From Halopseudomonas oceani (lineage in GTDB: Bacteria > Pseudomonadota > Gammaproteobacteria > Pseudomonadales > Pseudomonadaceae): a DNA stretch of 64,000 nt. A program made the position numbers and the translations under genes. The stretch's first letter is position 1. Every line of letters begins with the position of its first letter. The stretch lies in assembly GCF_002903165.1 (NCBI RefSeq), contig NZ_PPSK01000016.1:1-64000 (forward strand), written 5' to 3'. The notes under the pieces were generated by a model. That model had not been told where the DNA came from and did no database searches. It worked only from the letters and a program-made list of their open reading frames with translations. Positions 2,019 to 34,303 of the stretch are shown here, in pieces.

Positions 2019-2837
2019 ATGCTTAGAGGTATAGAAGGGGAAACGGGTCGTATCGCGGACATAGATATCCCGCACATTCTGGTTGTCGACGATAATCCCG
2101 ATGATGTTCGCACGATTATTCAGGCGATGCGCCGGGCGGGGTGGAAGGTTTCGGCGGCAAATGATGCCCGACAGGGTTTGCAGCGTGCTCTGGTGCTGCG
2201 TCCAGACCTTGTCCTATTAGATTTGCAGATGCCTCATATGGATGGTTTCACCTTTTGCCGCCTGCTGAGAGAAGCAGAGGGACTGCATCCTATCCCGGTT
2301 ATCTTCCTTAGCTCCGCAGGCTCGCTGGACAATCGCCTCAAGGGATTTCAGGTTGGCGGTGGGGATTATGTGCTCAAGCCGTGCGACCCCAAGGAGGTCA
2401 TTGCACGCATTCGTGTCCACCTTCATCTTAACTCGTCCCCAACCCCGGAGGCTGTTGCTCTGGCTGACGGGCCGGCTATCACGCGTAACAACAACTCTGA
2501 AGATCAACTGTTGTTGCGGGCAGCCATGCGCCTGATCAACGATAACCTCGGAGAGCTACCGTCCCTCGCTGAAATTGCTCAGCGAGTGGGCACTTATGAC
2601 AAGCGTTTGTCCCGGCTATTTCGTGAGCACATGGGCACGACAGTGTTTGCTTATGTGCGCGAGTTACGATTGCGCAAGAGTCAGCAGTTGCTCGCCGAAA
2701 GCGAGATGAGTGTGCAGGACATCGCAGATTGGGTCGGATACGGCAGCGCCTGTAATTTCACCACCGCATTTCGCCACAAGATCGGCGTGACGCCAACCGA
2801 GTTCAGGCAACAGGCCAAAGAAGTGACCGTTGAATAG
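2019..2837 (+). CDS. Response regulator, REC domain fused to AraC-type DNA-binding domain
   Basis: A 272-residue protein. Residues about 18-135 are a receiver domain: acidic pair D24-D25, phospho-acceptor D68 in LVLLDLQMP, and the conserved lysine K120 in YVLKP. Residues about 165-270 are an AraC/XylS double helix-turn-helix (LAEIAQRVGTYDKRLSRLFR; then VQDIADWVGYGSACNFTTAFR, ending with GVTPTEFRQQ). I chose the ATG at 2019 because GGGAG (2006-2010) lies 8 bp before it; TTG at 2004 and GTG at 2010 are in-frame alternatives. The stop codon lies 52 bp before the probable start of the next hybrid kinase gene, so the two are probably co-transcribed and form a cognate pair. It is the only free-standing response regulator in the island. 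Confidence 0.92.
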   Translation: MLRGIEGETGRIADIDIPHILVVDDNPDDVRTIIQAMRRAGWKVSAANDARQGLQRALVLRPDLVLLDLQMPHMDGFTFCRLLREAEGLHPIPVIFLSSAGSLDNRLKGFQVGGGDYVLKPCDPKEVIARIRVHLHLNSSPTPEAVALADGPAITRNNNSEDQLLLRAAMRLINDNLGELPSLAEIAQRVGTYDKRLSRLFREHMGTTVFAYVRELRLRKSQQLLAESEMSVQDIADWVGYGSACNFTTAFRHKIGVTPTEFRQQAKEVTVE

Positions 2838-2889
2838 TCTTCTTGTTCAGGATGCCGGTGTTGCTAACCCTAGGCGCGGATTGATCCGT

Positions 2890-5271
2890 ATGGCGTTCAA
2901 GGCCGGTGGCGGGTTGTTCTCGGCGCTGCTGTTGTTGCTGGTGTGGCCTCTGTCGGCGGAGGCGGCAGTCGATGCCTGCCTTGATGGGGAGGTGCCGCTG
3001 TATGGTCAGGCATCCCTGCTTGAGGACCCGACCCATGCCCTTGAGCCTGCGGAGGTGCTGGCGCTACCCCTTAGCGCCTTTGTTCCTTATCGACCTGGCC
3101 TTCTCAGCTGGAACTTCACCCGGTCGGCTATCTGGCTCAGGTTCACTTTGCAGAATGAGCGATCAGGCCCTTGCAGCAGTTGGCTGACCATAGGCGAGCC
3201 ACGGCTTGAGGAACTGAAGGTATATAGCAAGGGGGCAGGAGGGTGGACTCTGGAGCAGGCTGGCAGTCTGGTTCCGCTTGACCAATGGGGCTTCCTCGCA
3301 CGGCAACCACGATTTGAATTTCAGCTGCAGCCCGGTGAGCAACGCCAGGTGCTGGTTCGAGTAGTCAGTCGCAGCGTGATGTGGCTAGCGCCGACGTTGT
3401 GGGATCAGCAGACTTTGATTGAGTCGATGTCTGCCGAGCACTTGCTGGATGGCTTTACGTTCGGCGCAGTGCTGCTGATCGTGTTGGTCGGGTTGGTCGT
3501 GGGTATCGTCATTCGCTCGAAGTTACTGGTTCTCAACGGGCTGGCGCTGTTGTTTTATTGTGCGGTTGTGCTGGTCGTTGATGGTTACCTGTTTTATTGG
3601 CCTACGTTGTTGCCCTGGTCGAGGATGGCAGTCGCCATCTTGTCTGCAATCACCTACGTATTTTGCTACTTTTTCATCTTCGAATTGTTTCGCATGCGCT
3701 TTCTCGGGCGCTGGTTTAATGCCATTACGCTGGGCTTGCTCTGCGCGACGGTGATTGTGTTGCTTCAGGGGGCTTTTGGCGATTTTTTCATGTCTCGGGA
3801 GCGCTTTTACATCTTGCGTCTCGGTATCTACATCCTGCTTCCTGTTTCGTTGCTGCTGTCGGTTATTCGCCGGGTTCCAGTTAGTTGGGTTGCTTGGCTA
3901 CTTTGCTTGCAGCTTTTGCTTCAGGGTATCTATTGGCTGTACCGTAACGTTGTCCTCGATTATGAGTTTAAGGTACTGGACGGCTACTCGTTGCAGACCT
4001 CGTTTTTCCTCGCGCTGGTCTTGGTTTGTACCTTGATATCGGAGGTTCGGCAGCTGCGTCAGCGCGAACGTGAGGCCAACGAAGAAGTTGCCCACCTGCA
4101 GCGTGCCAAGCACGAGCGGCTGGAAAGCCAGGTTGAGCAACGTACTACCCAGCTTCGGGAGTCGCTTGACGCTCGCAGCTCCCTGCTCGGGCGTATTAGC
4201 CATGACCTGCGGTCACCGCTGGGCAGCATCATCAGCTACGCTCGTGAAGCGCGGGCTAGCGATTCTGTCGGGTATTTGCGGCGAATCGAGCGACTGGCCG
4301 GACAGCAACTGAGTCTACTTGATGATCTTGTGGCCCTGTCCCGGGTTGAGTTGCAGCACATCGAACTGAGTCTGGCGCCCGGTTACCTGTTCGGTTTTTT
4401 GCGTGAGATAGAGGAAGAGGGCAGCTTTCTCGCTCAACGAGGCAATAACGTGTTGCGCTGTGACTTCGCCGAGGACCTACCGGCCATCGTGAATGCGGAT
4501 TTCCAGCAGTTGCGCCGGGTATTGATGAATCTACTGAGCAACGCGGCCAAGTTTACCCGCGACGGGCTGATCGTATTACAGGTCAGTGCTGTCCGTGAGG
4601 AGGCCAGCGTAAGGCTGCGCTTCACCGTTCGTGACACCGGTGTCGGGTTTCCTGCCGAGAACAGCTATCGGATGCTAGAAGCGTTTCGGCGAGGGGATAA
4701 TGCGTCGGGGGTGGATGGATTCGGGCTCGGCCTGTCGATCGTTGTCGAGTTGCTGAAACAGATGGACGCGGCGCTTCAGGTGAACAGCGTTCCAGGCGGC
4801 GGGAGCGCCTTCAGCTTTGCTCTGCAGCTGGAAGTCGGCTCGGAGGAAGAGGTCGACTCGGTATTTCACGAGGACTACGCCTCCGGTGTGGACGGCGACG
4901 GCTTCAGCATCCTGTTGGTAGATGATGTTGAGCTGACCCGCGAATTTCTTGGCGATCTGTTGCTGGGTTATGGCTTTGATGTCGTAACCGTAGCAACTGC
5001 AGAAGAAGCTCTGGAAGAGCTTGAACGCTCGCCTTTTGATCTGCTGGTGACCGATCAGTTGATGCCGGGGATCGACGGCTGGGAGCTACTGCAGGTTGTT
5101 CGTTCGCGCTATGGGGCATTGCCGGTGTTGCTCTATTCGTCGATGCCGCCGAGGCCGAAGGCCGCATACTCAGACCTGGCATTTGATGCTTCGCTGCTGA
5201 AACCGTCCAGTACCGAGGCGCTGCTGGAGCAGGTCCAGTCGCTGTGCGAGCGAAGGCGGCAGGCGGACTAG
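2890..5271 (+). CDS. 7TMR-DISM hybrid sensor histidine kinase with C-terminal receiver
   Basis: Numbering is from the ATG at 2890 (793 aa). A signal peptide (KAGGGLFSALLLLLVWPLSAEAA) precedes a periplasmic 7TMR-DISMED2-like domain (about 30-170), seven membrane helices (about 185-385), a coiled coil (about 385-430), a HisKA domain with H438 in RISHDLRSP, a HATPase_c domain (N box NLLSNAAKF, G1 DTGVGF, G2 GFGLGLS) and a REC domain with D722 in LLVTDQLMPG. DISMED2 domains are predicted carbohydrate-binding modules, so a sugar-type ligand is plausible. There is no Hpt domain, so a phosphorelay to the REC-AraC protein would need one elsewhere. A TTG at 2830 overlapping the upstream stop is an alternative start that adds 20 residues. 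The 3' end is 15 bp from that of the convergent TorS-like kinase gene. Confidence 0.92.
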   Translation: MAFKAGGGLFSALLLLLVWPLSAEAAVDACLDGEVPLYGQASLLEDPTHALEPAEVLALPLSAFVPYRPGLLSWNFTRSAIWLRFTLQNERSGPCSSWLTIGEPRLEELKVYSKGAGGWTLEQAGSLVPLDQWGFLARQPRFEFQLQPGEQRQVLVRVVSRSVMWLAPTLWDQQTLIESMSAEHLLDGFTFGAVLLIVLVGLVVGIVIRSKLLVLNGLALLFYCAVVLVVDGYLFYWPTLLPWSRMAVAILSAITYVFCYFFIFELFRMRFLGRWFNAITLGLLCATVIVLLQGAFGDFFMSRERFYILRLGIYILLPVSLLLSVIRRVPVSWVAWLLCLQLLLQGIYWLYRNVVLDYEFKVLDGYSLQTSFFLALVLVCTLISEVRQLRQREREANEEVAHLQRAKHERLESQVEQRTTQLRESLDARSSLLGRISHDLRSPLGSIISYAREARASDSVGYLRRIERLAGQQLSLLDDLVALSRVELQHIELSLAPGYLFGFLREIEEEGSFLAQRGNNVLRCDFAEDLPAIVNADFQQLRRVLMNLLSNAAKFTRDGLIVLQVSAVREEASVRLRFTVRDTGVGFPAENSYRMLEAFRRGDNASGVDGFGLGLSIVVELLKQMDAALQVNSVPGGGSAFSFALQLEVGSEEEVDSVFHEDYASGVDGDGFSILLVDDVELTREFLGDLLLGYGFDVVTVATAEEALEELERSPFDLLVTDQLMPGIDGWELLQVVRSRYGALPVLLYSSMPPRPKAAYSDLAFDASLLKPSSTEALLEQVQSLCERRRQAD

Positions 5272-5286
5272 CGCAGTCGCCGGACG

Positions 5287-8076
5287 TCAGCTGCGCACTC
5301 CGAAGTAGGTTTCCAGTGTGGCTACCGAGGTCATAGCGTTCTGGTAGATGGTCATGCACAGTTTTTTCAGTACCGTCTCGTCAGGCGCGTTTTCGAGTTC
5401 GCTCTTCAGCGTCCGTGCGCTTTGCTCTAGCTTTCTCAGCCCGGAGTGTCCCGCCGTACTGATCAGATCATGCGCTTCGCGTGACAACGTCTGTGGGTCG
5501 GCGGCGTCGCCGAGAGCCCGGAAGCGTTCACCGCGTTTTATACAGTCGGCGGTCAGCATCGCGAGCATGGATATAAATCGCTCGGTACTCACCAGTTGCT
5601 TCAGAGTCTCCAGCGGAAGAGGGTCCAGTACCGATGCGCTGTCCTCGGCTTCCGGCGCGGGGGCGCGGGGCGACGGTATGTCGGCCACATTACCCAGGCA
5701 CAGCCGGCTCAGGGTTCTCCAGAGCAAATGCTGATCGATGGGTTTGGGGAGGTGGACATTCATGCCTGCTTGCAGCGATTTTTTCTCATCCTCCTGGCTA
5801 GCGTTGGCGCTCATGGCGATGATTGGCAGTTTGTAGAGCCGGGTATTTTGGCGCAGGATGCGGGTCGCGCTGAGGCCATCGAGTCCGGGCATCATGACGT
5901 CCATCAGCACCGCGTCATAGTTGAGCTGGCTATTTTCGGTCAACTGTTGCACTGCGTCGTAGCCATCCTCGACTTCGTCTACCAATACTCCCGCTTCGTG
6001 CAGAAACTCCCTCGCAACCAGACGGTTAACCTCGTTATCGTCCACTAGCAGAACACGTAACCCGTTCAAACCCGGGTCAGCCTGTGGCGGCGTTGGTGAG
6101 CTGATGGTGAGTGGGGTGTCGGGCGCCGCGATGCCGACTCGCACCCGGAACCAGAAGCAACTACCTTTGCCCAGGGTGCTGCGAACGCCGACGTCGCCAT
6201 CCATTAGTTCGCTCAGACTGCGAGAAATTGCCAGGCCAAGCCCGGTTCCACCATAGCGACGCGTGATAGAGGTATCTGCCTGCTGGAAGGGCGCAAAGAG
6301 CTTTGCCTGTTCCTGTTCGCTCAAGCCGATGCCCTGATCCTCAACCTCGCCATACAGGCAAGTACCTTCGCCAGCGACTTGCTGTAGTTCAAGGCGAAGG
6401 GTAATGATGCCGTGCTCACTGAACTTGATGGCATTGTTGGTGTAATTGAGCAGGATCTGATAGATCCGCACGGGATCGCCGACCAGGTTCGGCAACGCAG
6501 ACGCCGGCTCAAACTCAAGCTGCAAGCCCTTGTCCCGGGCCTTGTCTCCAAGCATCTCCCTAGTGTCATCAAGCAGTTGCTGGGGCGAGAATGGAATGCG
6601 TTCGACGGTCAGATGCTTGCCGTCGATTTTGGAAAAATCAAGAATGTCGTTGATGATGCCGAGCAGGTGTTGGCCTGAGCGCACCAGCTTTTCCATGTGT
6701 TCGCGCTGGCGCTGCTCTAGCGGGTGTTTAAGAACCAGCTCGGCGAACCCCAGGATGGCGTTCATCGGGGTTCGTATTTCATGGCTCATGGTGGCCAGAA
6801 AGTCGGATTTGGCCTTGGCAGCTTGCTCAGCCTGCTCCTTTGCGGTTTCCAGCGCCTGAGCTTGGGCTTTGGCTTCACTGGTATCAAGCCAGATGCCGTT
6901 TAGCAGTGTTGCGCCGTCGCTGGTCTTCCGCGCACTGGCGAGGGTTTTCAGCCAGAAGCGCTGCGTTTCCGTCTCAACTTCCATTTCCATATCCAGCGGG
7001 CACAACTGGTTCAGACTTTGGCTTATGAGGCGCTCCAGCGCTCGGGTATGTTCAGGGCTTTTATCAACGCGAATCCGGTCCAGACGCAATCCTGAGTGGC
7101 TGGCATCGAATGCCGAATCTCCGATGTAGCGGCTTGCCTTGCCGCTAAGGAACTGAAACCGCTGTTCTCCATCCGGATTGACGCGGAGTTGGAACACGGC
7201 TCCGGGCATTGCCTCGGTGAGGTCGATCAACTGCTGTGATATCCGCCTGTTCTCAGCATCGATCAGCGCTTCGCGCTCTAGCCGATCGGCACGTTGCATG
7301 TTGTCTCGGAATACCTCAAGCGCCTTTGCCATGCTGCCCACTTCGTCCTGTCGTTCGGTGTGATCAATAGGGCAGGCATAGTCGCGCAGGCTGAGCCTGT
7401 TCATGGTTCTGGTCAATTGCTTGATTGGCCGCGATATTTGCGTCAATGAAATGTAGGCCGACAAACCAATGACAAGGATCAGGGCCAGGGTGAATGCGGC
7501 GGCGGTGTTCACCATTGTTGCGCGAGTAGTTGCACTGAGTGCCTCTGAGGTGGAGTTGAAATTGTTAACAGTGCGGCTTCGCAATACATCCATATTCTGG
7601 CGTATTGACTGAAGGGTTGGGTCGAACTCCTGGTGAATGATTGTCAGGGCTCGATCACCTCGCCAGCGGGCAGCGGAGTCGATGACGGCGTTGGCCTGCT
7701 CAAATAGAGCCCGTTCCTGCTGGCGGATCAGGCTCAACTGGTGGCTGGCGTTGCTCACCAGCGGTGCGATCGTTGCCAGCTTGTCGTCAAAGTCTTCCAT
7801 GACGACGGCCAGTTGCTGTTGCGTCTGGCGCATGTCGGCGACTTCCTGTTCTGTCAGCACAGACAGGACCAGATGGCTGGCGTCGCTCAGATCGAGCAGG
7901 GCCGCGCTGATCAGCAGTGATGCTCTGGCGTCCTGATTGAGCAGGGCACGATAGTCACGGTCTACCGCCCGCAGGCTGGCCAGTGAATACAACGTGATGA
8001 TGACGGCAAGCGCGCCCAGCAGGGACACTAAAAAGACGATCCTGCTGGTGAGGTTGAATTTGCTGAGAATGTTCAT
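5287..8076 (-). CDS. TorS-like hybrid histidine kinase (sensor-HAMP-HisKA-HATPase-REC-Hpt)
   Basis: A 929-residue three-module phosphorelay kinase. One transmembrane helix (about 12-34) and a second (about 190-210) enclose a helical periplasmic sensor of about 150 residues. HAMP follows (about 212-265), then a PAS-like segment (about 280-400), HisKA with H432 in TMSHEIRTP, HATPase_c (NAIKFS, DQGIGLS, GTGLGLAIS), REC with D726 in VLMDVMMPG, and a C-terminal Hpt with H869 in REAHDLI. The usual HxLKG context of Hpt is altered to HDLIS. The start codon overlaps by 4 bp (8073-8076) the stop of the upstream binding-protein gene, so the two are translationally coupled. This matches the TorT/TorS and LuxP/LuxQ logic of a periplasmic binding protein controlling a hybrid kinase, although here the partner is of the sugar-ABC type. 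Confidence 0.93.
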   Translation of the reverse strand: MNILSKFNLTSRIVFLVSLLGALAVIITLYSLASLRAVDRDYRALLNQDARASLLISAALLDLSDASHLVLSVLTEQEVADMRQTQQQLAVVMEDFDDKLATIAPLVSNASHQLSLIRQQERALFEQANAVIDSAARWRGDRALTIIHQEFDPTLQSIRQNMDVLRSRTVNNFNSTSEALSATTRATMVNTAAAFTLALILVIGLSAYISLTQISRPIKQLTRTMNRLSLRDYACPIDHTERQDEVGSMAKALEVFRDNMQRADRLEREALIDAENRRISQQLIDLTEAMPGAVFQLRVNPDGEQRFQFLSGKASRYIGDSAFDASHSGLRLDRIRVDKSPEHTRALERLISQSLNQLCPLDMEMEVETETQRFWLKTLASARKTSDGATLLNGIWLDTSEAKAQAQALETAKEQAEQAAKAKSDFLATMSHEIRTPMNAILGFAELVLKHPLEQRQREHMEKLVRSGQHLLGIINDILDFSKIDGKHLTVERIPFSPQQLLDDTREMLGDKARDKGLQLEFEPASALPNLVGDPVRIYQILLNYTNNAIKFSEHGIITLRLELQQVAGEGTCLYGEVEDQGIGLSEQEQAKLFAPFQQADTSITRRYGGTGLGLAISRSLSELMDGDVGVRSTLGKGSCFWFRVRVGIAAPDTPLTISSPTPPQADPGLNGLRVLLVDDNEVNRLVAREFLHEAGVLVDEVEDGYDAVQQLTENSQLNYDAVLMDVMMPGLDGLSATRILRQNTRLYKLPIIAMSANASQEDEKKSLQAGMNVHLPKPIDQHLLWRTLSRLCLGNVADIPSPRAPAPEAEDSASVLDPLPLETLKQLVSTERFISMLAMLTADCIKRGERFRALGDAADPQTLSREAHDLISTAGHSGLRKLEQSARTLKSELENAPDETVLKKLCMTIYQNAMTSVATLETYFGVRS

Positions 8077-9344
8077 CTGCTGGTACCGGGGAATGACGGC
8101 GAGAAGCTGGTAATGGCAGCCTTCAATTGAGCAACCGCCTCGGCATCACTCAACTGGTCATTAAGGTGACTGCTGACGATGGTGTATATCGCCTCTTTTA
8201 CTTGGCCCGGATTGGCGTTGCCCATGGCGACGGAACCCATAACGGTGCGCCGCATGTTTGAAGCGCGCAGATCGTTGATTGCCTGCTGGCCGCACAGGTC
8301 AAATGTGGCACTTGGCACATCAACTCTGGCCGGTGCCGCGCCCGTGGCAATGTTGAGTTGTCGCTGTAGCTCGATATCCATCAGCGAGCTGGCAAACGCC
8401 TCGCGTATCTCGGGTGTGGCGGGATAATCCTTGAAGAGCATGTACTGGTCGCTGTTGAACAGAAACAGGCCCTGGGTATCAGGAAAGCGAAAGCAGGCGT
8501 AGTCCTGCTCTGGAATCAGACCGTGCGCGCGGAACTCGCCATTGACCCAGGTGCCCTGAGCCTGCATTAACGCTTGGCCGTTGCGCACCAGGTCGGTAGC
8601 CTCATCCCAGCTACGATTGTGCCTGCCGGCGTCCATATAGCTCCGTAGCTGGCGCATTCTCTCAAAGCTCTGCAGTAACAGTAGGTCGTCTGCTGCCGTG
8701 GGGGTGAGATCGAGGAATACCCGTCGATAGAAATCGGCACCGCCGGTGCCCGCGGCAACGTTCTCAAACAGTAATGTGTGTTCCCACGGCTCATTGCCGA
8801 TTGCAAGCGGAGTAGCGCCTGCAGCACGTGCCTTATCGAGCATCTGCAGCAGCTCTGGCCAGGTATCGGGGGCCGAAAGTTCCAGTTGCGACAGCAGTTT
8901 CTGGTTGAGCCACAACCGGTTGGTCGCGTGCGCATTGATGGGGACGGCGACCCAATGGCCCTGATAGCGCGACAGCGCCTGAATCTCCGCGGGGATTACT
9001 TCTTCCCATTCCTGGTCTACTGCGATGGCGTCGAGATTGGCCAGTTTGCCTTGCATGGCCCAATCCTGGATGTCGTAGCCAATTGCCTGGGAGGCCATCG
9101 GTGGTGCACCGGAGGCCACGCGTTGTCGGACGGCATCCATATAGCTCGATGTGCCGCTGCCTTTGCGCGCCGTGGTGATCCACTCAATGCCACGCTCAGC
9201 CTGATATTGCTGAATGACCTGAATACTCGCTTGCTCACCGGGCGACACCCACCAGTGCATGACATTAACCGCAGCAGCGGCCAGCGGTGCAATGGCACTC
9301 AGCGGCAGCGCGATAGATAGGGAAAATATCCGGAGTGACGACAT
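8073..9344 (-). CDS. Solitary periplasmic sugar-type solute-binding protein (probable kinase partner)
   Basis: A 423-residue family-1 extracellular solute-binding protein. The ATG at 9344 gives a clean signal peptide (MSSLRIFSLSIALPLSAIAP, cleavage after the following alanines) and mature protein starting near VNVMHWWVSPGEQ; a TTG at 9377 is an alternative start. Sugar-ABC binding-protein landmarks include the N-terminal HWW, WVAVPINAHATNRLWLN, and the late TGAAPARVDV segment. There is no lipobox and no ABC permease or ATPase gene anywhere in the island. The gene overlaps the start of the TorS-like kinase by 4 bp. A paralogue lies at 27811-29061, sharing for example FYRRVFL, RFPDTQG, FNSDQ and GAAPARVD. 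I infer a sensory rather than transport role; the ligand is unknown. Confidence 0.88.
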   Translation of the reverse strand: MSSLRIFSLSIALPLSAIAPLAAAAVNVMHWWVSPGEQASIQVIQQYQAERGIEWITTARKGSGTSSYMDAVRQRVASGAPPMASQAIGYDIQDWAMQGKLANLDAIAVDQEWEEVIPAEIQALSRYQGHWVAVPINAHATNRLWLNQKLLSQLELSAPDTWPELLQMLDKARAAGATPLAIGNEPWEHTLLFENVAAGTGGADFYRRVFLDLTPTAADDLLLLQSFERMRQLRSYMDAGRHNRSWDEATDLVRNGQALMQAQGTWVNGEFRAHGLIPEQDYACFRFPDTQGLFLFNSDQYMLFKDYPATPEIREAFASSLMDIELQRQLNIATGAAPARVDVPSATFDLCGQQAINDLRASNMRRTVMGSVAMGNANPGQVKEAIYTIVSSHLNDQLSDAEAVAQLKAAITSFSPSFPGTSR

Positions 9345-9913
9345 GGTGACTGCTCGTTTTTCTTCAGGCGCTGGCAATCATGAGCCAACAGATGGCGTTC
9401 CACAATTGTACTTGCGCCACATCTTAAGTGCCTGATCAGGCGTTGCCTGTCCGCGCATTCAAAGGTGCGTGCCCGGCTCATATACCTCTGAGAGCAGGGG
9501 CCTGTCTGGCGCAATAGCAGACAGCTTGCGGTTGCTGTCGGCGGTAGGGCTTTGAATCGGCGGATTATGGTTCGTTTTCTGACGTTCCAGCTTTCCGGAT
9601 TGTGGCCTGTTTGCGGGTTGCCCCCCTTCAATAGAATTCCCCTCGCGGGGTGGCGACCGGAGTTCAGTCGCGGTTTTTTCTACAGCACTTGAGTCTGACC
9701 GGCTCCAACGGGCCCACCCCTGACGAACAACTGAATGATCGGGAATGTTCATCATGTCTCGCCTGGACGCGACTCCCTCCGCTGTGGCGTTTCGATCTGA
9801 CCTTACATTGGGTTACGTCTGAGCCGCTTAGTGGTGTTAACGCAGCTTCCGTCAAGGTGATCAATGGCATTGGTGTCGTTCGGATCTTGCTGATGAACCG
9901 CTCGGAGTAAGCT
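9345..9913. other. Divergent intergenic region between binding protein and secretion operon
   Basis: About 570 bp without a convincing gene. It must hold the promoters for the minus-strand binding-protein/kinase pair and for the plus-strand secretion genes. Open frames on both strands here are short, lack ribosome-binding sites and resemble nothing I know. I could not identify a credible FleQ-type or sigma-54 site by eye. Confidence 0.5.
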
Positions 9914-11731: not shown

Positions 11732-11740
11732 GTCGTTATC

Positions 11741-21500: not shown

Positions 21501-24500
21501 AGCGTTTCCGGTGATCTGGATGTGCGGGTCGGGGCAGACAACACGGCCGGCAGCGGTGTCGCTGATGTCACCTTCGCCGCCAATCAGGCCACCCTTGAGG
21601 CACTGGGGCTGAGTGCCGGCTATGACGGCTCTGGTGATCCAGTCATGCTGCAGTACGTCATTAGCGCTGATGGTCACACCCTCACGGCGTTCAGCGGGGA
21701 CGGCCGTAGCGCTGGCGATCAGGTTTTTGTTGTGTCTATCAACGATTCCAGTAGCAGCGATGCTTCCTACACCTTTACGCTAAATCGCCCCTTGAACCAT
21801 GGCGGCGCGACGTCACTGAATCTGCCATTTGCCTATGACGTGGTTGATGGCGACGGTGACAATGACAACGGTGATTTTGTGATTACCATCGAAGACGATG
21901 CTCCGGTCACAAGCAAGAGCATTACCGTTGACGAAGACAGCTTAGCCGGCAACGCAGCCAATACCTTTAACACCAGCGCTGATGCCAACCCTGAAAATAC
22001 AACGGTTTATGACGTCAATGGCGTACCGTTGACGGCAACTACCAACGGTGACGGCAGCGTCACTTACAGTTATCCAGCCGGTACAGACGTTGCGGACAAG
22101 CATTTTTTCGGCACGGTCACGGTTAACTCCAATGGCAGTATCACCTTCGTGCCTGAGCCAAACTACAGCAATCACGATGGGGCGGACAGCTTCCGCTATG
22201 AGACGGTTAACGGTTCTGATATCGCCTCGGTAACGGTTACTGTAAACGTCACACCGGTTGCCGATGCGCCTCAGTTAAGTACCGATGCGGCTACCGTTAC
22301 CACGAACGAGGACGTCGCGGTTGCGCTTGGCCTGAACGCGCCGGCGGTTGTCGACAGCGGTGACCAGAACGGTGCGGGCGTTGCCGGCGACAACCCGGAG
22401 CTGCTGGGAGTGATAACGCTCTCGGGCATCCCGGAAGGTGCTGTATTGCTGGATGCCAGCAACGGTGACGCACCGCTATACGAGTCGACCGGTGATGCGA
22501 TTACGATTGTGATCAGTGATGGCACGCACATTAGCGGCCTAGCGGGCAACACCCTCACCCTGACGCAGCAGCAGTTCGAGGCACTGAAAGTACTGCCCCC
22601 CGAGGACGCGCATGAGAATTTCACGGTTGAGATGCGCGTTACCAGCTATGAGGTAGACAACACCGGAACGCCGATACCAGGTGTTGCTGGTGCCGAATCG
22701 TCGACCAGTGTTGTCGTCGATGTTGCAGCTGTAACCGATCCTGTATCGCTCAGTTTTGCTGACGATACCGATACCCGCTCGCTGTCGATTAACGAAGACA
22801 GCACCTATGATCTTGCCGCGGCGCTGAAGGTTGAATATCCCGACAATGATGGAAACAGCCTGCCTGATGTTGATGGCAGCGAGGAGCGCTGGTTTGAGAT
22901 CGCCGGTTTGCCGGAAGGCTCTACCGTAACCACTGCCGACGGCGTGATTGTGGTGACTGCTGCCAATCCGGTGGTCACTGTGCCAGCGGGCGGGCTTTCC
23001 ACCAGCGCTACCGGGCTGCCGCAGATGGATATCACGCCGCCAGCGGACTACAGTGGCGCTGCGGTAGCGGTCACTGTCACCCTCAAGTCGCAAGACCGGG
23101 ACGATGACAGCGCTGGTGCTGCACCGGTGGTGGAGCAGGATTCGGTCACCCTGAACCTGCAGGTTGACCCGGTGGCCGATGCGCCGGATGTGGAAGGGGT
23201 AACGGCCCCTGAAGACACGGCGGTCAACTTTCTGGCCAATGTTTCGCCGGGCGATACCGATGGTTCTGAAGAACTTACCGGCATTACTATCAAGGATATC
23301 CCGGCCGGTTGGGTCATCGAAGACCATGAAGGCAATCCGCTGACGCCGACAGGCGGCCAATTGGTGATTGACCCGGCAGATGTGCTTTCGGGTGATTACA
23401 AGTCCTACACCATTAAAGCACCGGGCCACAGTAGCCTTGACACTACTCTGACGCTGGATATTTCGGTTCGCGACAACAGCAACGACGGCGCGGTCGGCCC
23501 GGCTAACCAGACCTTCACTGACATTCAACTTGAGGTTCAGGTTACTCCGGTTGCCGAGACTGTCGACACCGACTCCAACGATGCAGGTGGCAACGATGTC
23601 ACTTTGACGCCTGGTCACGACTATCTAACGCCTGGCGCTGAAGACGCCTGGTTCTCCCTGGGGCAGGAGTCAGGATTTAACCTGGCTGACAACTGGAGCA
23701 ATGAAGACAGCGCCAGTGAAAAGGTGTTCGCGCTGCTGACGCCTGAGCTGGTTGTTGGTGACGGCTCAAATACCGACGCTATCGGTTCCAGTTTCCGTTA
23801 TTCAACTGATGGCGGTACAACCTGGGTAACACAGGTTTACGGCGGCGACCCGATCGAAGTGCCTGTCGAATACCTGGATACCCTCCAATTCAAGGCCGCA
23901 CCGGACTTCTCCGGGTCCTTCTCGATTGATGTTCAAGCCGTTACGCGAGACTACGATGAGGATGATCTGGCAGGCCGCAACGTTGATGAGTTGTCACCTG
24001 CCGAGCTGGCCGCGCTGAGCTATAATGAGGCTGTCAGCGGTAACGCAGTGTTGACCAACGTCTTTATTGCACCGGTTGCCGATACTGCGACAACCACAGT
24101 AACGGCGCATGTCAGGGGGCTGGAAGATGAGGCGATGCCGCTGTCGATTCGGCCTAGCAGCTCTGACCCGTCAGAAACATTCAATGTCACCATTTCGGCA
24201 ATTCCGGACGGAACCACGCTGGTCTACGACGGTATTACGCTGACTCAGGATGCGACCGGTCTGCCGGCCGGTTTCAGCATCGTATCGACGGGAGACGGTT
24301 CCTGGTCTGTTGCCATCGACGACTTTGACCCGGCCAAGGGCGGGGCCATGACTATTACCGCGCCACCGAACAGTAATGAGCCCTTTACCCTGACGGTTGA
24401 TACGGTTTCGGTTGATACCCTGACTATCCCGGGCGACCCAAACTCGCCCTATGTCAGCGAGTCTTCTGCCTATCAACTGGATATTCTGGTTTCACCAAAA

Positions 24501-27500
24501 GGCGTGGCAGACTCAGCGGAACTGACTATCGTCGATCCGGCGGACCAGAGCTTTCAAGAAGCGGATGTCGACGCAAATGGAGGGGTGCCGCTCAATCAAC
24601 TGGTTACCGGCGCTTCGTTGACCGACAGCGATGGTTCAGAAGTCCTGAGTTTCAAAGTCAGCAACCTGCCCGCTGGCTTCACTCTGATCGGCGGGACGCT
24701 GATAGGCGACGGAGTCTGGTCACTGACGGAGGCGCAGCTGCAGACAGCGGTGCTGGTCACTCCGCCGAACTTCAACGGTACTGCGTCGTTTGATCTGTAT
24801 GCAGTGACGACGGAGAACGACGGCGACTCGTTGACTGATCCGCATGTTGTCAGCGTGAGGGTAGAACCGTCACCGGAAGCGAGTATTAACCTGACCGCCT
24901 CCATTGATGAAGATGTCAGTACGGCACTGTCATTCGGTATTCAACATCAGAACGGCGATACCGATGAGCAGCTGGATGCGGTGTGGTTGAGCGTATTGGA
25001 TGTAGATGGTGCCACTGACTTTACGCTGACCTACGGCTCTGGTGGTGTTTCCCTGGCACAGGCTGTGTCGGACGGTTTACCGGGAATCACGCTGGAGGAC
25101 GGTTGGTACAAACTGTCTGGCGACGCGCTCAACAGTATCCACGCCCAGGGGCGCGAGAACTGGAGCGGCTCTGCTGAAATCGATGTCCGTTATCTGATTA
25201 CCGATCCGGCGGCAGATGGCACGGTGAGCGATGTTCAGAGTGCTACCGACGGTTCCTACAGCATCACGGTCAACCCGATTACCGACCAGCCGGTGCTGAC
25301 GGTGACCTCTGGTGCTGATTCCAGTCTGGCGGCGCCGGCAAACGTCGTTGTTGAGCTGAACATTGCTAACCAGGGCGGCGACTATGATGGCAGCGAACAA
25401 CTCAATCGTATTCTTCTCGACAATGTGCCGGACGGTGTGATCGTAGAGAATGGCGAGTATCTGGGGAACGGTCAGTGGATGCTGGTGCCGGAAACGGCGT
25501 TTAACGGCCAGCTTACCCCGTCTGTCACCTTGAGGGTGCAGGCCCGCGCTGGCGGACTGGATGATCACCAGATAACCGTTACCGTGATCACCGAAGACGC
25601 CAACAACGGCCAGCAACTGAGTGACAGCACCAGCGTCAGCCTGAGCACGACGTTCGCTGAAGGCGAGCCAGCGCAGCCCGCAGAGATTCTGCAATGGGAG
25701 CAAAGTGCTTTCGAGCCGACTGAGGACACCGCGTTTTCGCTGGGTGAGGGTATCAATGCGAGCATTGAGGACGGCGTAACCGACAACGGCTTCACTGTCA
25801 CCCTGACCGACTTGCCAGCGGGCACAACCGTGTCCGGCATGCGCTTGACCGTCATCGACGGGCAGGAGGTCTGGACTGCATCGGGAGTCGGCGGGGACGC
25901 TGAGCTGCAGACGCTGCTCGACAGCATTGTGGTGACGCCTCCGGCTGACTGGAACAAGCATGACGGCGATTTTGTCTACGACGCCAAATTGACCACCTAC
26001 GTCCCATCCGGCGGGCGCGCCGAAGCCGCGATTACGATGCAGCAGTCGGTGATTCCTGTCACTGATGACGCAGATGTGTTGATCAGCGCGCCGGCTGTCG
26101 CCGAGGGGAATGATGTTGAGATCAGTATCGACCTGTCCAACCCGGCAGATGATCCGAACTGGACGCTGATCGATGGCAATATTTATCTAACGCTGGACGA
26201 GCCGACGGCGATGCAGGGTGGTGTGTTGCAGGATTCGTCTGGCAATCCGCTGACGCTGACCAGTGTGACCGGCGTGAGCGGTGTACCGGACGGCAGCTAC
26301 TACGTGATTGATGTCGCTGCCGGCGGAAATAGCGTCGATCTGCGCTACACCCCGGTGGACCAGCATGTCAGCGGTTCGATCAACCTCTCGGTCATCTCCC
26401 GGGGTCAGGAGCTGGACTCCAGTGTGGTCAAGACCACAACCACAACGGCGACGGCAACGGTTGAACCGGTCAACAGCGGCTATGACTTTTCCGTTGCTGA
26501 CACCACTGGCGCCGAGAATACGTTTGGGCAGGTCACCGCAAACAAGTCAAATGTTATTCAACTGAACGTAACCGATGGCGGTCTGGTCGACGCAGACGGT
26601 TCGGAGGCGGTCGGGACAATTCTGTTGAGCGGTCTGCCCAACGGCTTCCTGGTGTATGTGGGTGACAGCGCCGCCGATGCCACCTTGGCCAGCCTTGGCA
26701 GCAACGCTGGCAGCGCTGGTGATGGCACCAATACCTGGTTGTTGGGCGAGGGAGAACTTCCCGCATTTATCGGGATCCTGCCGCCAGCCCACTGGAGTGG
26801 TACGCTGGAGCAACTGCGCCTGATCGTAAATAGTCAGGAAAGCAATCTGAGCGAGATTACTGCAACCGAGCAGGGGTTCTCTTTGACCGTTGAGGCTGTG
26901 GCCGAGGGGCTGGCACTCACACCAACGCCCAGTTTTGGCAACGAGGGTGAGATTATCCAGCTGAACCTGAACGCCGAGATGAGAGACATCGAGCAGGTTG
27001 ATGCCACTGACGCGTCGATAGAGACCATCAATCTGCAATTCAAGGGCCTGGGAGAGCATGCGGCGTTCTATCTGGATGGTGTGCTGATTAGTGGTACAGA
27101 GAACGTCAGCTACGCCGACGGCATTTACACTCTGGAGGGTCTGACCCAGGACGAGGTAAGTCGGTTGGGCTTTGTGCAGAGTGTCGATGCTCTGGGTGAG
27201 GTTCAGGTGCGAGCCCAGACGGTCGAGAGTGAGAATGGTGATACCTCGGCATGGACCCACGAGGAGTCTGCTGCCTGGGCTGAAATCACTACCAACATTA
27301 CGCCGCAATACGGTACGGCGGGTGACGACCAGCTGCTATGGACTGGATCGCTGATCAATGGCAGAGGGGGAGACGACACCATTCAGCTACGCTTTGATGA
27401 GTCGGTCACCGGCAGTGAGCTGAGTGGTTCGGCGCGGAATATCGAAGCCATTGATCTGACAGGCAACGGCGAAAACAGTATTGCCAGCCTGAGTGCGGAA

Positions 27501-27701
27501 GACGTGTTTGATATGACTGATGCCCGCAATACGCTGCGTATTGATGGTGATGGTGCCGGCGTGGACAGTGTTGAACTCAGTGCCTCCAGCGGCTGGACTC
27601 TGGATGCCGGGGCCAGCGTGGCTGGTTACGATGTCTACACGGCAACAGTCTCTTCTCAAACGGTTGTGCTGGAGGTGGCGCAGGGCGTGCTGGTGGAGTA
27701 A
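15561..27701 (+). CDS. Giant LapA-type retention-module adhesin, type I secreted
   Basis: About 4046 residues from the ATG at 15561 (GAGG at 15552-15555); a frame-open upstream ATG at 15498 lacks support. Residues 1-125 are a retention module (GEAWALASGGARRELQAGD; FSELVAQ; then the helix QLVRIAEIIESDGLSPLAV), with a di-alanine TAAR at 97-100 where LapG cuts LapA. An Ig-like linker (about 175-375) and one VCBS domain (about 376-506) precede five 257-aa tandem units (507-1791), each a T1SS-143-like plus a VCBS-like domain. Further T1SS-143, cadherin-like and Ig-like domains with recurring PVADAP-type linkers reach about 3915. Only two RTX-like motifs remain (GTAGDDQLL, GRGGDDTIQ), followed by a C-terminal secretion domain (IEAIDLTGNGENSI, NTLRIDGDG). 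It should stay plugged in the TolC-like channel until proteolysed. No lapD or lapG is in the window. Confidence 0.95.
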   Translation: MNTLITVVTLVGEAWALASGGARRELQAGDRLLASETLIVEPGAQVDVDFGDNQVISFVGEQSMPVEDFSELVAQVSVPQSPQSPQPIESLTAEAGTAARSEPTADVPVTLQGSKFIQLVRIAEIIESDGLSPLAVARIEETLRPLDMGYPAYPRDIDDWREHRGGDEHGEGLPARRPGVDVELQGAGEDGIYNAAEIGSDGTVSALVTLDDQVRAGDKLVVTDGDDNVLLERMVTEQDLLDGVVVEVPVAVGQTDVVVKATVSVDNGNSASSDDNKPVDNIAPEPLVSEREDADTDVIDLDLDSYFSDSSPISYEVQGLPPGLSFDPQSGRITGTLDNSASQGGDGSDGRYTVTIVATDSAGNATTHELAWTVTNPAPTAADDTNSIAEDGPATAGNVITGEGADNGSAAADSDPDGDDLLVVGVEAGASGSDPVGNVGATVTGQYGELVLNADGSYSYVLDNDNPLVNALKDGDTLTEVFTYRISDGEGGEDTATLTITINGNTDGAPGVSVDDLNGAEVGDNSIAEDATTPVTGTFTVTAPDGLKQISVGGITVTAEQLDNLGTTPVNITGSEGQLTLTGFNETTGEVTYRYQQTGTAKDHNAGDDSVTDSFPIIVTDNADESTAPSDLVILITDTAPVANADTNSVTEDSAIPATGNVISDTGSGEDDIGADTTTVTGVSTGTVTTELSGSVGSSVTGSYGTLVLGSDGEYSYVLDDSNADVNALKDGDSLTDTFSYTIKDADGDWSTTTLTITINGNTDGAPGVSVSDLNGAEVGDNSIAEDATTPVTGTFTVTAPDGLKQISVGGITVTAEQLDNLGTSPVNITGSEGQLTLTGFNETTGEVTYRYQQSGTSKDHNAGDNSVTDSFPIIVTDNADESTAPSDLVILITDTAPVANADTNSVDEDSGTPATGNVISDSGSGEDDVGADTTTVTGVTTGTAGGELTGAVGGNVVGSYGTLVLGSDGEYSYVLDDANADVNALKDGDSLTDTFSYTIKDADGDWSTTTLTITINGNTDGAPGVSVNDLNGAEVGDNSIAEDATTPVAGTFTVTAPDGLKQISVGGITVTAEQLGNLGTTPVNITGSEGQLTLTGFDEVTGEVTYRYQQTGTAKDHSAGDDSVTDSFPIIVTDNADESTAPSDLVILITDTAPEANADTNSVDEDSGTPATGNVISDTGSGEDDLGADATTVTGVSTGTVTTELTGSVGSSVTGSYGTLVLGSDGEYSYVLDDTNADVNALKDGDSLTDTFSYTIKDADGDWSTTTLTITINGNTDGAPGVSVSDLNGAEVGDNSIAEDAMTPVTGIFTVTAPDGLKQISVGGETVSAEQLADLSTTPVVINGSEGQLTLTGFDGTTGEVTYRYQQSGTSKDHSAGDDSVTDSFPIIVTDNADESTTPDNLVILITDTAPVANADTNSVDEDLGTPATGNVISDTGSGEDDIGADTTTVTGVSTGTVTTELSGSVGSSVTGSYGTLVLGSDGEYSYVLDDTNADVNALKDGDSLTDTFSYTIKDADGDWSTTTLTITINGNTDGAPGVSVSDLNGAEVGDNSIAEDATVPVTGTFTVTAPDGLKQISVGGITVTAEQLDNLGTTPVNITGSEGQLTLTGFNETTGEVTYRYQQTGTAKDHSAGDDSVTDSFPIIVTDNADESTAPSDLVILITDTAPVANADTNSVDEDSGTPATGNVISDSGSGEDDLGADATTVTGVATGTASGELTGAVGGNVVGSYGTLVLGSDGEYSYVLDDSNADVNALKDGDSLTDTFSYTIKDADGDWSTTTLTITINGNTDGAPLLTPNDGNGSGTGIEAAGDATVYESGLTTDGPGMQLATVAGSIQLNTADGLASVTLGDGANAVTLTLAQLQSLGTTPQQITTPYGTLTLTGLSATDSVGGVPTAAELQYSYTLDRPYDNEQAGEDDNAIDAITAVVTDAGGASHTDQLQINIVDDAPSVGTAENASVTEAGLAGGSREGEGGAPTSVSGDLDVRVGADNTAGSGVADVTFAANQATLEALGLSAGYDGSGDPVMLQYVISADGHTLTAFSGDGRSAGDQVFVVSINDSSSSDASYTFTLNRPLNHGGATSLNLPFAYDVVDGDGDNDNGDFVITIEDDAPVTSKSITVDEDSLAGNAANTFNTSADANPENTTVYDVNGVPLTATTNGDGSVTYSYPAGTDVADKHFFGTVTVNSNGSITFVPEPNYSNHDGADSFRYETVNGSDIASVTVTVNVTPVADAPQLSTDAATVTTNEDVAVALGLNAPAVVDSGDQNGAGVAGDNPELLGVITLSGIPEGAVLLDASNGDAPLYESTGDAITIVISDGTHISGLAGNTLTLTQQQFEALKVLPPEDAHENFTVEMRVTSYEVDNTGTPIPGVAGAESSTSVVVDVAAVTDPVSLSFADDTDTRSLSINEDSTYDLAAALKVEYPDNDGNSLPDVDGSEERWFEIAGLPEGSTVTTADGVIVVTAANPVVTVPAGGLSTSATGLPQMDITPPADYSGAAVAVTVTLKSQDRDDDSAGAAPVVEQDSVTLNLQVDPVADAPDVEGVTAPEDTAVNFLANVSPGDTDGSEELTGITIKDIPAGWVIEDHEGNPLTPTGGQLVIDPADVLSGDYKSYTIKAPGHSSLDTTLTLDISVRDNSNDGAVGPANQTFTDIQLEVQVTPVAETVDTDSNDAGGNDVTLTPGHDYLTPGAEDAWFSLGQESGFNLADNWSNEDSASEKVFALLTPELVVGDGSNTDAIGSSFRYSTDGGTTWVTQVYGGDPIEVPVEYLDTLQFKAAPDFSGSFSIDVQAVTRDYDEDDLAGRNVDELSPAELAALSYNEAVSGNAVLTNVFIAPVADTATTTVTAHVRGLEDEAMPLSIRPSSSDPSETFNVTISAIPDGTTLVYDGITLTQDATGLPAGFSIVSTGDGSWSVAIDDFDPAKGGAMTITAPPNSNEPFTLTVDTVSVDTLTIPGDPNSPYVSESSAYQLDILVSPKGVADSAELTIVDPADQSFQEADVDANGGVPLNQLVTGASLTDSDGSEVLSFKVSNLPAGFTLIGGTLIGDGVWSLTEAQLQTAVLVTPPNFNGTASFDLYAVTTENDGDSLTDPHVVSVRVEPSPEASINLTASIDEDVSTALSFGIQHQNGDTDEQLDAVWLSVLDVDGATDFTLTYGSGGVSLAQAVSDGLPGITLEDGWYKLSGDALNSIHAQGRENWSGSAEIDVRYLITDPAADGTVSDVQSATDGSYSITVNPITDQPVLTVTSGADSSLAAPANVVVELNIANQGGDYDGSEQLNRILLDNVPDGVIVENGEYLGNGQWMLVPETAFNGQLTPSVTLRVQARAGGLDDHQITVTVITEDANNGQQLSDSTSVSLSTTFAEGEPAQPAEILQWEQSAFEPTEDTAFSLGEGINASIEDGVTDNGFTVTLTDLPAGTTVSGMRLTVIDGQEVWTASGVGGDAELQTLLDSIVVTPPADWNKHDGDFVYDAKLTTYVPSGGRAEAAITMQQSVIPVTDDADVLISAPAVAEGNDVEISIDLSNPADDPNWTLIDGNIYLTLDEPTAMQGGVLQDSSGNPLTLTSVTGVSGVPDGSYYVIDVAAGGNSVDLRYTPVDQHVSGSINLSVISRGQELDSSVVKTTTTTATATVEPVNSGYDFSVADTTGAENTFGQVTANKSNVIQLNVTDGGLVDADGSEAVGTILLSGLPNGFLVYVGDSAADATLASLGSNAGSAGDGTNTWLLGEGELPAFIGILPPAHWSGTLEQLRLIVNSQESNLSEITATEQGFSLTVEAVAEGLALTPTPSFGNEGEIIQLNLNAEMRDIEQVDATDASIETINLQFKGLGEHAAFYLDGVLISGTENVSYADGIYTLEGLTQDEVSRLGFVQSVDALGEVQVRAQTVESENGDTSAWTHEESAAWAEITTNITPQYGTAGDDQLLWTGSLINGRGGDDTIQLRFDESVTGSELSGSARNIEAIDLTGNGENSIASLSAEDVFDMTDARNTLRIDGDGAGVDSVELSASSGWTLDAGASVAGYDVYTATVSSQTVVLEVAQGVLVE
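17079..20933 (+). repeat. Five tandem 771-bp (257-codon) repeat units inside the adhesin
   Basis: The landmark encoding DGAPGV recurs at 17079, 17850, 18621, 19392, 20163 and, as the start of diverged sequence, 20934; each step is exactly 771 bp. Each unit encodes a T1SS-143-like domain (through SDLVILITDTAP) and a VCBS-like domain (DTNSVDEDSG to TLTITINGNT). The units are close to identical but mosaic. The VCBS half has two versions, one with TVTTEL/GSVGSSVTGSYG (units 1, 3, 4) and one with GELTGAVGGNVVGSYG (units 2, 5). The front half of unit 4 is the most divergent. Confidence 0.97.
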
Positions 27702-27716
27702 TCCACTTGATGGCAG

Positions 27717-27751: not shown

Positions 27752-27810
27752 TTGTAGTACCGACCTTCGGGCAGGCAGAATGAAGCGTCTTTTGACTCAG
27801 AGACAACGGA

Positions 27811-29061
27811 ATGTTGAAACTCGTGCTGCCTGCATTGCTATTGCTGGTGTCGCCCTTGGCTGCTGCGCAGGATGCCGAACCTGTACCATTTGAGCTGTAT
27901 CACTGGTGGGGCTCCGCCGGAGAGCGGGATGCGGTGGACGCTCTGCAGCGGTACGTCGAACAGCTAGGTGTGCGCTGGGCGGAGAGCGGTCGTGTTCAGC
28001 AGAGTAACCTGATTGGCTACCGCCAGACATTGGCGCAGCGAATAGAGCAGGGCGACGGGCCTGACGCCGCGGTTGTTCTCAGTACCGATGTTCGCCAGTT
28101 GATGAACTCCAACGCTTTGCTGTTGCTGGACGATGTCGCTGCGGCCAATGACTGGGACGAGGTTGTCCCCACGGCGGTGCAGAGGCTTTCTCGCGTAGAA
28201 GGGCATTGGGTCAGCATTCCCATCAACATCCATTCAACCAACTGGATCTGGCTAAACGCGGCGCTAGCACACCAGTTGGATCTACCGGTGCTGGATACCT
28301 GGGATGATTTGATTGTTGCGTTGGAGAAGGCGCGGCAAGCGGGTCTTGTGCCATTGGCTATAGGTGATGAGGCGGGGCAGCACATGTTGCTGTTTGAGGC
28401 CGTGAGTGCTGGGGTGGGTGGTGCCGAGTTCTATCGGCGGGTCTTTCTCCAATTGAAGCCGACCGAGCCTGACCTGGAGCTGCTGAAAGTCGTATTTGCG
28501 CGGATGCGTGAGCTAAGCGATTACGCTCAAACCGCAGGCCTCGGTTTACGTTGGAACGAGGCAACCGCAATGGTGCGTACCGGGAAGGCTCTGGCTCAGT
28601 TGCAAGGCAGCTGGGCTATTGCCGAGTTCAATCATTTTGGACTGGTGGAAGGGCAGGACTACCATTGCCAGCGTTTTCCAGACACTCAGGGCATGGTGCT
28701 TTTCAACAGCGACCAGATAGTTGTGTTCCGTAACCAGAGGACATCGGATTCCGTTCGCGCAGCATTCGCGACTGCGCTAATGAGTCCGGAAGTACAACGT
28801 GAACTCAACATCACCAAAGGGGCCGCACCGGCCAGGGTCGATGCCGTAGCAGACGGCTTTTCAGGTTGTGGGCGCAAGGCAATTCATGATGTGCGTATGG
28901 GCAACATGCGGGGTACGCTGCTGGAGTCTATTGCCATGAGCGGTGCCAGCCCCATGTCAGTGTCCCATGCATTTTATCCCGTGGTCAGCAGTCACTTCCG
29001 GGGAGAAATCTCCGATCAACAGGCGCTTAAAGCTCTGGAGACTGTCTGGGTTAACCAGTGA
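27811..29061 (+). CDS. Second solitary sugar-type solute-binding protein, paralogue of the kinase-linked one
   Basis: A 416-residue family-1 solute-binding protein with a signal peptide (MLKLVLPALLLLVSPLAAAQ) and mature start near FELYHWWGSAGERDAVDAL. It parallels the protein at 8073-9344 throughout: HWW, GHWVSIPINIHSTNWIWLN, AGLVPLAIGDE, FYRRVFLQL, QRFPDTQGMVLFNSDQ, GAAPARVD, and paired late cysteines. There is no lipobox and no transporter gene beside it. It lies about 110 bp after the adhesin stop, beyond a hairpin, so it probably has its own promoter or depends on read-through. I infer a second periplasmic receptor subunit for one of the two hybrid kinases, with a different ligand; a scavenging role with distant permeases cannot be excluded. 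Confidence 0.88.
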   Translation: MLKLVLPALLLLVSPLAAAQDAEPVPFELYHWWGSAGERDAVDALQRYVEQLGVRWAESGRVQQSNLIGYRQTLAQRIEQGDGPDAAVVLSTDVRQLMNSNALLLLDDVAAANDWDEVVPTAVQRLSRVEGHWVSIPINIHSTNWIWLNAALAHQLDLPVLDTWDDLIVALEKARQAGLVPLAIGDEAGQHMLLFEAVSAGVGGAEFYRRVFLQLKPTEPDLELLKVVFARMRELSDYAQTAGLGLRWNEATAMVRTGKALAQLQGSWAIAEFNHFGLVEGQDYHCQRFPDTQGMVLFNSDQIVVFRNQRTSDSVRAAFATALMSPEVQRELNITKGAAPARVDAVADGFSGCGRKAIHDVRMGNMRGTLLESIAMSGASPMSVSHAFYPVVSSHFRGEISDQQALKALETVWVNQ

Positions 29062-34287: not shown

Positions 34288-34303
34288 ATGTTTACCTCGT
34301 TAC

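Follow-up and report, generated by a model that had tools for sequence, protein, structure and literature searches.

A REC-AraC/DISM kinase pair as candidate controller of a giant-adhesin operon in Halopseudomonas oceani, with a solitary sugar-type binding protein and its kinase as possible second input

Periplasmic binding proteins that lie next to, or act on, hybrid kinases are familiar from TorT/TorS, LuxP/LuxQ, and CBP/ChiS, and in Tar/MalE and Trg/RbsB a solute-binding protein (SBP) docks on the four-helix-bundle domain of a chemoreceptor. NspS/MbaA brings a binding-protein input to biofilm through cyclic di-GMP (c-di-GMP), and in RetS/LadS with GacS matrix production is decided by a 7TMR-DISM kinase together with another hybrid kinase. 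To our knowledge, the signals for giant-adhesin deployment in environmental pseudomonads are mostly unknown. Here, we analyzed 64,000 nucleotides of Halopseudomonas oceani (contig NZ_PPSK01000016.1, positions 1 to 64,000; the window), in which a giant adhesin and its type I secretion genes share an island with two hybrid kinases, a response regulator of the AraC type (REC-AraC), and two solute-binding proteins, SBP1 and SBP2. The whole analysis was computational. The best supported candidate for a conserved adhesin controller is the pair of DISM kinase and REC-AraC, and SBP1 with its four-helix-bundle kinase looks like an alternative input to that controller.

The island resembles each of these systems in part. 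Compared with TorT/TorS, LuxP/LuxQ, and CBP/ChiS, it appears to use a simple four-helix-bundle sensor and a binding protein of the SBP_bac_1 class. Tar/MalE and Trg/RbsB, with an SBP on a four-helix bundle with HAMP, offer the closest physical model, although the output here would be a kinase or GGDEF rather than CheA. NspS/MbaA shares the nutrient or binding-protein input via c-di-GMP and differs in SBP class. Unlike RetS/LadS-GacS, the island has a local REC-AraC with its own putative boxes before one adhesin operon. We know of no shared regulator box across adhesin classes for PvrSR/RcsCB-cupD. The direct precedent is in Pseudomonas aeruginosa, where, according to excerpts of PMC7927077, the homologous family-1 glucose-binding protein GltB activates the kinase GtrS and its pocket residues are required. 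In GltB-GtrS/GltR, as here, an SBP1-family binding protein is paired with a sensor kinase (PDB 5dvf is the P. putida CSV86 counterpart), but GltB sits in a transport operon, gltBFGK-oprB, whereas SBP1 appears solitary, lacks K92, K339, and H379, and lies beside an adhesin controller. The PvrSR/RcsCB-cupD two-component genes, in the excerpted text of PMC3842833, were probably acquired together with their surface-structure cluster, which there makes fimbriae. Excerpts of PMC7423604 describe arginine-linked c-di-GMP control in P. putida, a nutrient input to biofilm, and those of PMC11113362 treat binding proteins and the kinases AgtS and AruS. A 2022 review (PMC8846402, in part) names SBP_bac_3 as the sole PBP-clan domain studied in c-di-GMP networks, a statement that concerns domains within such proteins; solitary glucose-type binding proteins acting as biofilm sensors would be a class outside these. 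We recognized neither a REC-AraC/DISM adhesin regulator nor an SBP_bac_1/GGDEF biofilm sensor in the titles and abstract openings that searches of an open-licence library listed.

The island reads LysR (-), REC-AraC (+), DISM kinase (+), hybrid kinase (-), SBP1 (-), tolC (+), lssB (+), hlyD (+), adhesin (+), and SBP2 (+), and every gene named in a first-pass annotation made from the letters alone was found in its place. REC-AraC (2019..2837, + strand) matches Pfam Response_reg and HTH_18; its open reading frame (ORF) opens at a TTG at 2004, and the ATG at 2019 fits the 272-aa relative P0163 (96% identical). The 7TMR-DISM hybrid histidine kinase (2830..5271, + strand, start codon uncertain) has the order DISMED2-7TM-HisKA-HATPase-REC, and its ORF overlaps REC-AraC by 8 bp. 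DISMED2 scores 79.6 bits (cut-off 22) and the 7TM domain 22 bits, below its cut-off of 29; both precede the kinase, in agreement with the 7TMR-DISM label given before. In Denitrificimonas caeni (L041:13980-15641; L numbers denote individual loci), the DISM kinase is apparently split into two ORFs.

We matched REC-AraC (alignment A2) in 57 of 398 genomes of the family at E 1e-55, some of them weaker paralogs, compared with 12 genomes that have sensor-type SBPs. Forty REC-AraC-centred stretches were fetched from genomes or contigs chosen for REC-AraC; 37 keep the label by BLAST, and the three without it (L226-L228) were left out of the 37, L226 among them carrying exporter, adhesin, and TonB receptor. 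The 40 stretches cover 43 of 66 listed REC-AraC places, with 8 in earlier stretches and 15 outside. A DISM kinase is present in 32 of the 37 loci and a TonB-dependent receptor in 30. An adhesin system accompanies REC-AraC in 25 of these SBP-less loci: type I in 8, SdrD-like in 8 (counting weak matches in L201 and L207), and two-partner secretion in 9. The remaining 12 have none of the three, although L192 and L200 encode DUF11 repeat proteins and the ends of contigs are close by in L199 and L204. Such systems occur in 0 of 16 other SBP-family stretches (L031-L036, L040, L106, L107, L112-L118), a rough control set that has 14 members from outside the family sample and does not prove a base rate of adhesin systems. 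Where SBPs are present, the neighbours include PgaABC (L028, L029), SdrD-like proteins (L014, L017), Lap-type exporters (L039, L109), and DUF11 proteins (L013, L016), together with a DUF4347 protein in L013; some SBP-pair loci have no recognized matrix gene nearby. Other genomes of the genus (L209, L211, L212) have two REC-AraC genes near a Lap-type exporter.

The first-pass annotation had proposed that sugars sensed by the binding proteins and kinases set adhesin expression, and had suggested a search for the same sensory genes beside adhesins elsewhere. Linkage of sensory and adhesin genes did emerge, and L039 and L109 likewise have the SBP-kinase pair next to a Lap-type exporter with its adhesin. 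The weight placed on the binding proteins did not hold, as the conserved adhesin partner is the DISM kinase with REC-AraC and no SBP occurs in any of the 40 stretches. We rejected the SBPs as main adhesin switch, since all 40 stretches are SBP-less and many have adhesins.

Upstream of REC-AraC is a candidate AraC-type double box, a direct repeat of CTTTGCTTGAGCGGA with a 21-bp period (1949..1984, + strand). Its leave-one-out position weight matrix score is 20.6 against shuffle maxima of 12.1-14.7, and a score of 25.3 compares with a maximum of 16.0 over 10 shuffles. The leave-one-out scan beats shuffles in 8 of 13 loci (the window, L013, L014, L016, L029, L038, L039, L109). A LysR-type regulator (946..1848, - strand; Pfam HTH_1 and LysR_substrate) is divergent from REC-AraC, and the boxes might belong to it instead; by tblastn labels, REC-AraC has a divergent LysR neighbour at 8 of the 13 SBP loci and at 18 of the 37 others. 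We consider this improbable, as boxes are found at loci without an adjoining LysR label (L013, L016, L029, L209, L211, L212, L215, L222) and a 21-bp direct repeat is an AraC-type arrangement.

Two REC-AraC half-sites were found in the divergent SBP1/tolC region. A half-site matrix built from the REC-AraC upstreams of other clades alone gave the site at 9450..9464 (- strand) a score of 15.3, with a dinucleotide-shuffle p of 0.007 for this region; among 1248 overlapping stretches of equal length in the window, 0 did as well. The second, at 9550..9564 (+ strand), is the fourth-best half-site in the first 36 kb. The same leave-clade-out test gave p values of 0.0005 (L014) and 0.034 (L017) for SdrD/SBP regions, 0.012 (L039) and 0.001 (L109) between REC-AraC and tolC, 0.0005 downstream of REC-AraC in L038, and 0.039 upstream of the kinase operon in L029; L041 was negative. 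Furthermore, in held-out loci, a double box precedes tpsB in 4 of 4 cases, and a half-site precedes SdrD in 6 of 6 and tolC in 5 of 9. The double box also precedes 21 of 41 REC-AraC-labelled genes, a set that includes one plain AraC gene (L216) and paralogs. These loci are new sequences, yet contain relatives of training genes, and the combined p-values ignore shared descent. L200 and L205 are absent from the REC-AraC box and tree counts because their ORFs were joined. The four tolC genes that lack a site (L194, L195, L208, L226) follow REC-AraC on the same strand, and our guess is that they could be read from its promoter. A pattern fitted post hoc to both window half-sites has 9 matches in the genome, 2 of them in this region; the other 7 led nowhere, 6 being inside ORFs.

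The operon that follows begins with a TolC-type outer membrane channel with an OmpA domain (9914..11731, + strand; TIGR01844, 266.5 bits; PF00691), then an LssB-type type I secretion ABC exporter (11741..13912, + strand; TIGR03375, 862.5 bits, cut-off 693.1) and an HlyD-type adaptor (13909..15363, + strand; TIGR01843, 388.6 bits). The giant repeat adhesin (15561..27701, + strand) has VCBS and T1SS-143 repeats and belongs to the BapA/Bap/LapF family (NF045619, 269.8 bits, cut-off 180). Its ORF runs for 4,067 aa from 15498; the protein is about 4,050 aa long from the Met at 15561, where the aligned relatives in L039 and L109 begin. It had been called a retention-module adhesin. A large adhesin it is, but the module itself is weak: NF033682 (retention_LapA) does not list the window adhesin at E 0.01 and scores 49.6 (L109) and 49.1 (L039) for the relatives, where 50 is the cut-off. 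None of the three adhesins has a [TAP]AA[GVAS] site, which we take to be the LapG-type cleavage motif, within its first 260 aa. We rejected the retention module with LapG control as an established fact. LapD and LapG have one match each in the genome, adjacent on contig C7. The genome also encodes a second LssB-type exporter, with TolC and HlyD, at G000:C30:20302-22413 (L158), 43% identical.

Between the DISM kinase and this operon, on the opposite strand, lie SBP1 (8073..9344, - strand) and its kinase (5287..8076, - strand). SBP1 is an SBP_bac_1 protein by Pfam; its ORF extends to 9377, and the start we chose gives 423 aa, the length in the database prediction and in its 95% relative P0008. 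The kinase ATG overlaps the SBP1 stop by 4 bp, as noted in the first-pass annotation. By Pfam, model, and fold match, the kinase comprises a transmembrane segment, a four-helix-bundle periplasmic sensor, HAMP, HisKA, HATPase, REC, and Hpt, the last at 22.2 bits, below the Pfam cut-off of 24.6. It had been called TorS-like, a description that suits the kinase core alone: the score against TIGR02956 (TorS) is 392.4 bits, short of the 676.5-bit cut-off, and AlphaFold2 models the sensor region as an all-helical four-helix bundle (pLDDT 87.8). Best Foldseek matches were chemoreceptor (Vc1313, MCP2201) and NarQ four-helix-bundle sensor domains, one of them below E 0.001 (7.4e-4). A motif, RWRGD(R/K)AL, is invariant in the periplasmic part of all 19 aligned sensor regions. 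A membrane protein with the same sensor domain is in the gene cluster of 22 of 29 SBP1 relatives from named genomes, and the other seven loci (L031-L036, L040) have none in the cluster. This supports SBP1 as a member of a sensor-linked family.

The S. stutzeri locus L194 runs LysR, REC-AraC, DISM kinase, TonB receptor, small ORF, tolC, lssB, hlyD, and adhesin; in the window, the SBP1-kinase pair occupies, in inverted direction, the place of the TonB receptor. A TonB receptor is present in 1 of 13 SBP/REC-AraC loci (H. salegens) compared with 30 of 37 others (Fisher 4.5e-6; like the shuffle p-values, this test ignores shared descent). A profile search found it in 2 of 26 SBP-sensor loci (H. salegens and L037, the latter missed by the BLAST label), 31 of 40 others, and 0 of 16 controls. 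On a careful REC-AraC tree of 50 rows, with 5 of 55 left out as long branches or paralogs (L216_2, L225-L228), we counted at least 5 SBP/TonB state changes over 42 rows and 9 target-type changes over 36 rows, scoring H. salegens as SBP though it has both inputs. A quick tree of all 55 rows gave 5 and 11 changes, respectively. A single SBP clade is rejected (approximately unbiased test, p 3.9e-10). The SBP1-kinase pair therefore appears to have joined the controller several times. At L099:11273-16428, which we assign to H. salegens by inference, two divergent DISM kinases and a TonB receptor accompany the SBP-kinase pair.

From this, we think it reasonably probable that a dedicated phosphorelay governs the adhesin operon of this island, with REC-AraC acting on CTTTGCTTGAGCGGA boxes and the SBP1-kinase as second input. 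REC-AraC would bind the repeats upstream of its own operon and those in the region that SBP1 and tolC share. Its binding, whether activating or repressing, would set how far the exporter-adhesin operon is transcribed, and probably the genes for SBP1 and its kinase as well. The DISM kinase would serve as core phosphodonor or phosphatase for REC-AraC. SBP1 would be a glucose-type binding protein whose pocket has changed and which has been freed from transport; it may dock on the four-helix-bundle kinase and so supply a second input in place of the TonB-dependent receptor of relatives. Because there is no REC-GGDEF beside the window kinase, that kinase probably feeds REC-AraC or an unlinked c-di-GMP enzyme.

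Several observations weigh against this scheme. No box was found before the window adhesin gene, in the hlyD-adhesin region (p 0.94), or before SBP2 (p 0.27), nor before the SBP in L013, L016, L015, L039, and L104, and L028 was negative (p 0.15). The SBP1/tolC promoter has half-sites and no good double box; over the first 36 kb taken together, the best half-site score, 15.8, lies within the range of maxima from 10 shuffles (mean 14.6, highest 19.0), and therefore the case for the SBP1/tolC half-sites rests on position. The double box is missing in 20 of the 41 REC-AraC-labelled upstreams and the half-site in 4 of the 9 tolC upstreams. A linked Lap-type exporter among SBP loci is known from two lineages only; SBP and exporter are at separate places in S. 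stutzeri 95A6, Pseudomonas sp. ABC1, and S. kirkiae, and no LssB exporter passed the cut-off used in H. salegens, which does have SBP, kinases, and REC-AraC. The inputs are also not strictly exclusive, since H. salegens carries both and S. kirkiae (L037) has SBP, DISM kinase, and, beside the latter, a TonB receptor, with no REC-AraC there. As for the earlier claim that two sugar-type binding proteins govern the adhesin, the two-SBP set was seen in this island only, and SBP2 is the one without a regulator box.

The neighbourhood could instead reflect hitch-hiking on a mobile island, with sensors and adhesin functionally uncoupled. Within the genus, just 2 of 37 genomes have the SBP family, and the nearest kin of the window REC-AraC on the tree are from Marinobacter (L014 and L017; support 100/99), as such a history would allow. 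However, the DNA boxes are common to unrelated adhesin classes and the arrangement recurs over many genomes, and we regard uncoupled hitch-hiking as very unlikely.

SBP1 and SBP2 (27811..29061, + strand; Pfam) are 46% identical over 382 aa, and the nearest solved chains to SBP1 are 4r2b and 5dvf, the glucose-binding protein of P. putida CSV86. Compared with the 12 glucose-pocket residues given in section 3.6 of PMC7927077, SBP1 retains 9 and has K92I, K339T, and H379M; a sugar is therefore a plausible ligand, but specificity for glucose is doubtful. SBP2, with pocket WWENVLWWNDKM, is more altered: it keeps 8 of 12 (W35, W36, E41, W250, W270, N301, D303, K339), with G68N, Q90V, K92L, and H379M, and it has few relatives above 50% identity. 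Position 379 is M, and position 92 is I or L, throughout the 16 members of alignment A1. Denitrificimonas-like SBPs beside a sensor (L038, L039, L041, L109) have N or H at 379, and transporter-type relatives have L-K-H at 92/339/379 in 7 of 9 (L031, L036, L112-L118). By score, sensor-type SBPs are in 12 of the 398 family genomes, 9 at 668 bits or more and three (G053, G130, G068) at 397-430 bits; in a 398-genome phylum sample, no SBP match exceeded 492 bits save in the own genome.

Ordinary transport proteins with a permease elsewhere would also show an SBP_bac_1 fold and most sugar-pocket residues, as these do. No transporter permease or ATPase gene lies within the island, and a single CUT1 permease query, from the transporter-type relative L112, found no close match in the genome (best 21.6 bits). 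The binding proteins thus look solitary, as first annotated, and the cognate sugar permease that would have told against their sensory role was not turned up by that one query. The SBP1 gene also overlaps the kinase gene, and SBPs pair with sensors in 22 of 29 relatives. We find a transport role, already disfavoured, scarcely credible.

Two further sensor-type SBPs with M379 (L106:4517-5824, L107:7130-8413) have no kinase match within their stretches; genes around the L106 copy encode, among others, a GAF/PEP-utiliser (PtsP-like) protein and a T2SSE-type ATPase, and an SPFH gene is also nearby. Pocket CWEGMAWWIDSF marks a third SBP class, which occurs in L032-L035 and L040, and the next gene is DUF1800 where checked (L032, L040). 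In the own genome, one 805-aa open frame with two SBP_bac_1 matches (G000:C6:28879-30876) is perhaps a tandem binding-protein fusion.

In relatives, the SBP-linked sensor is often found with GGDEF. Of 24 distinct kinase-type loci, 11 have a full-length REC-GGDEF gene next to the kinase (L013, checked with Pfam, L014, L017, L018, L019, L023, L024, L028, L029, L037, L104), and in L020 (Paenacidovorax caeni) and L022 (Accumulibacter) the sensor is fused to HAMP-GGDEF with no kinase. Because relatives pair the SBP with REC-GGDEF or a sensor-GGDEF fusion, c-di-GMP is likely a second output of the SBP-sensor system. A 1492-aa ORF in L104 could not be named. These 11 loci and two fusions, together with LapD and LapG at C7, would also suit an account in which the SBP1-kinase acts only on c-di-GMP via an unlinked GGDEF, the adhesin is affected post-transcriptionally through LapD/LapG, and DISM/REC-AraC is separate. 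However, no REC-GGDEF match lies beside the window kinase, and no full-length REC-GGDEF protein of the genome is a close homolog: the top match that spans most of the length is 32% identical, and a 49% match covers the REC part only. The missing LapG-type site in the adhesin N-terminus and the REC-AraC half-sites in the SBP1/tolC region also speak against this account, which we consider rather unlikely.

Returning to the REC-AraC/DISM pair, we lean slightly towards a widespread plug-in controller: one such pair with its own box, repeatedly coupled to adhesin export systems that are not homologous to one another (type I, two-partner, SdrD/OmpA-like, DUF11, and perhaps poly-N-acetylglucosamine) and to exchangeable sensors, either a TonB-dependent receptor or a solitary sugar-type SBP with a four-helix-bundle kinase or GGDEF. 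A shared DNA box would make the regulon directly testable and would predict which adhesin answers to which sensor. If inputs and outputs have indeed been exchanged around a single regulator, this would amount to a natural experiment on two-component rewiring. Directly 3' of SBP2, at 29362-36184 of the window, is a separate cluster of MMPL, BNR/YCF48-like, DUF1329, and DUF1302 genes.

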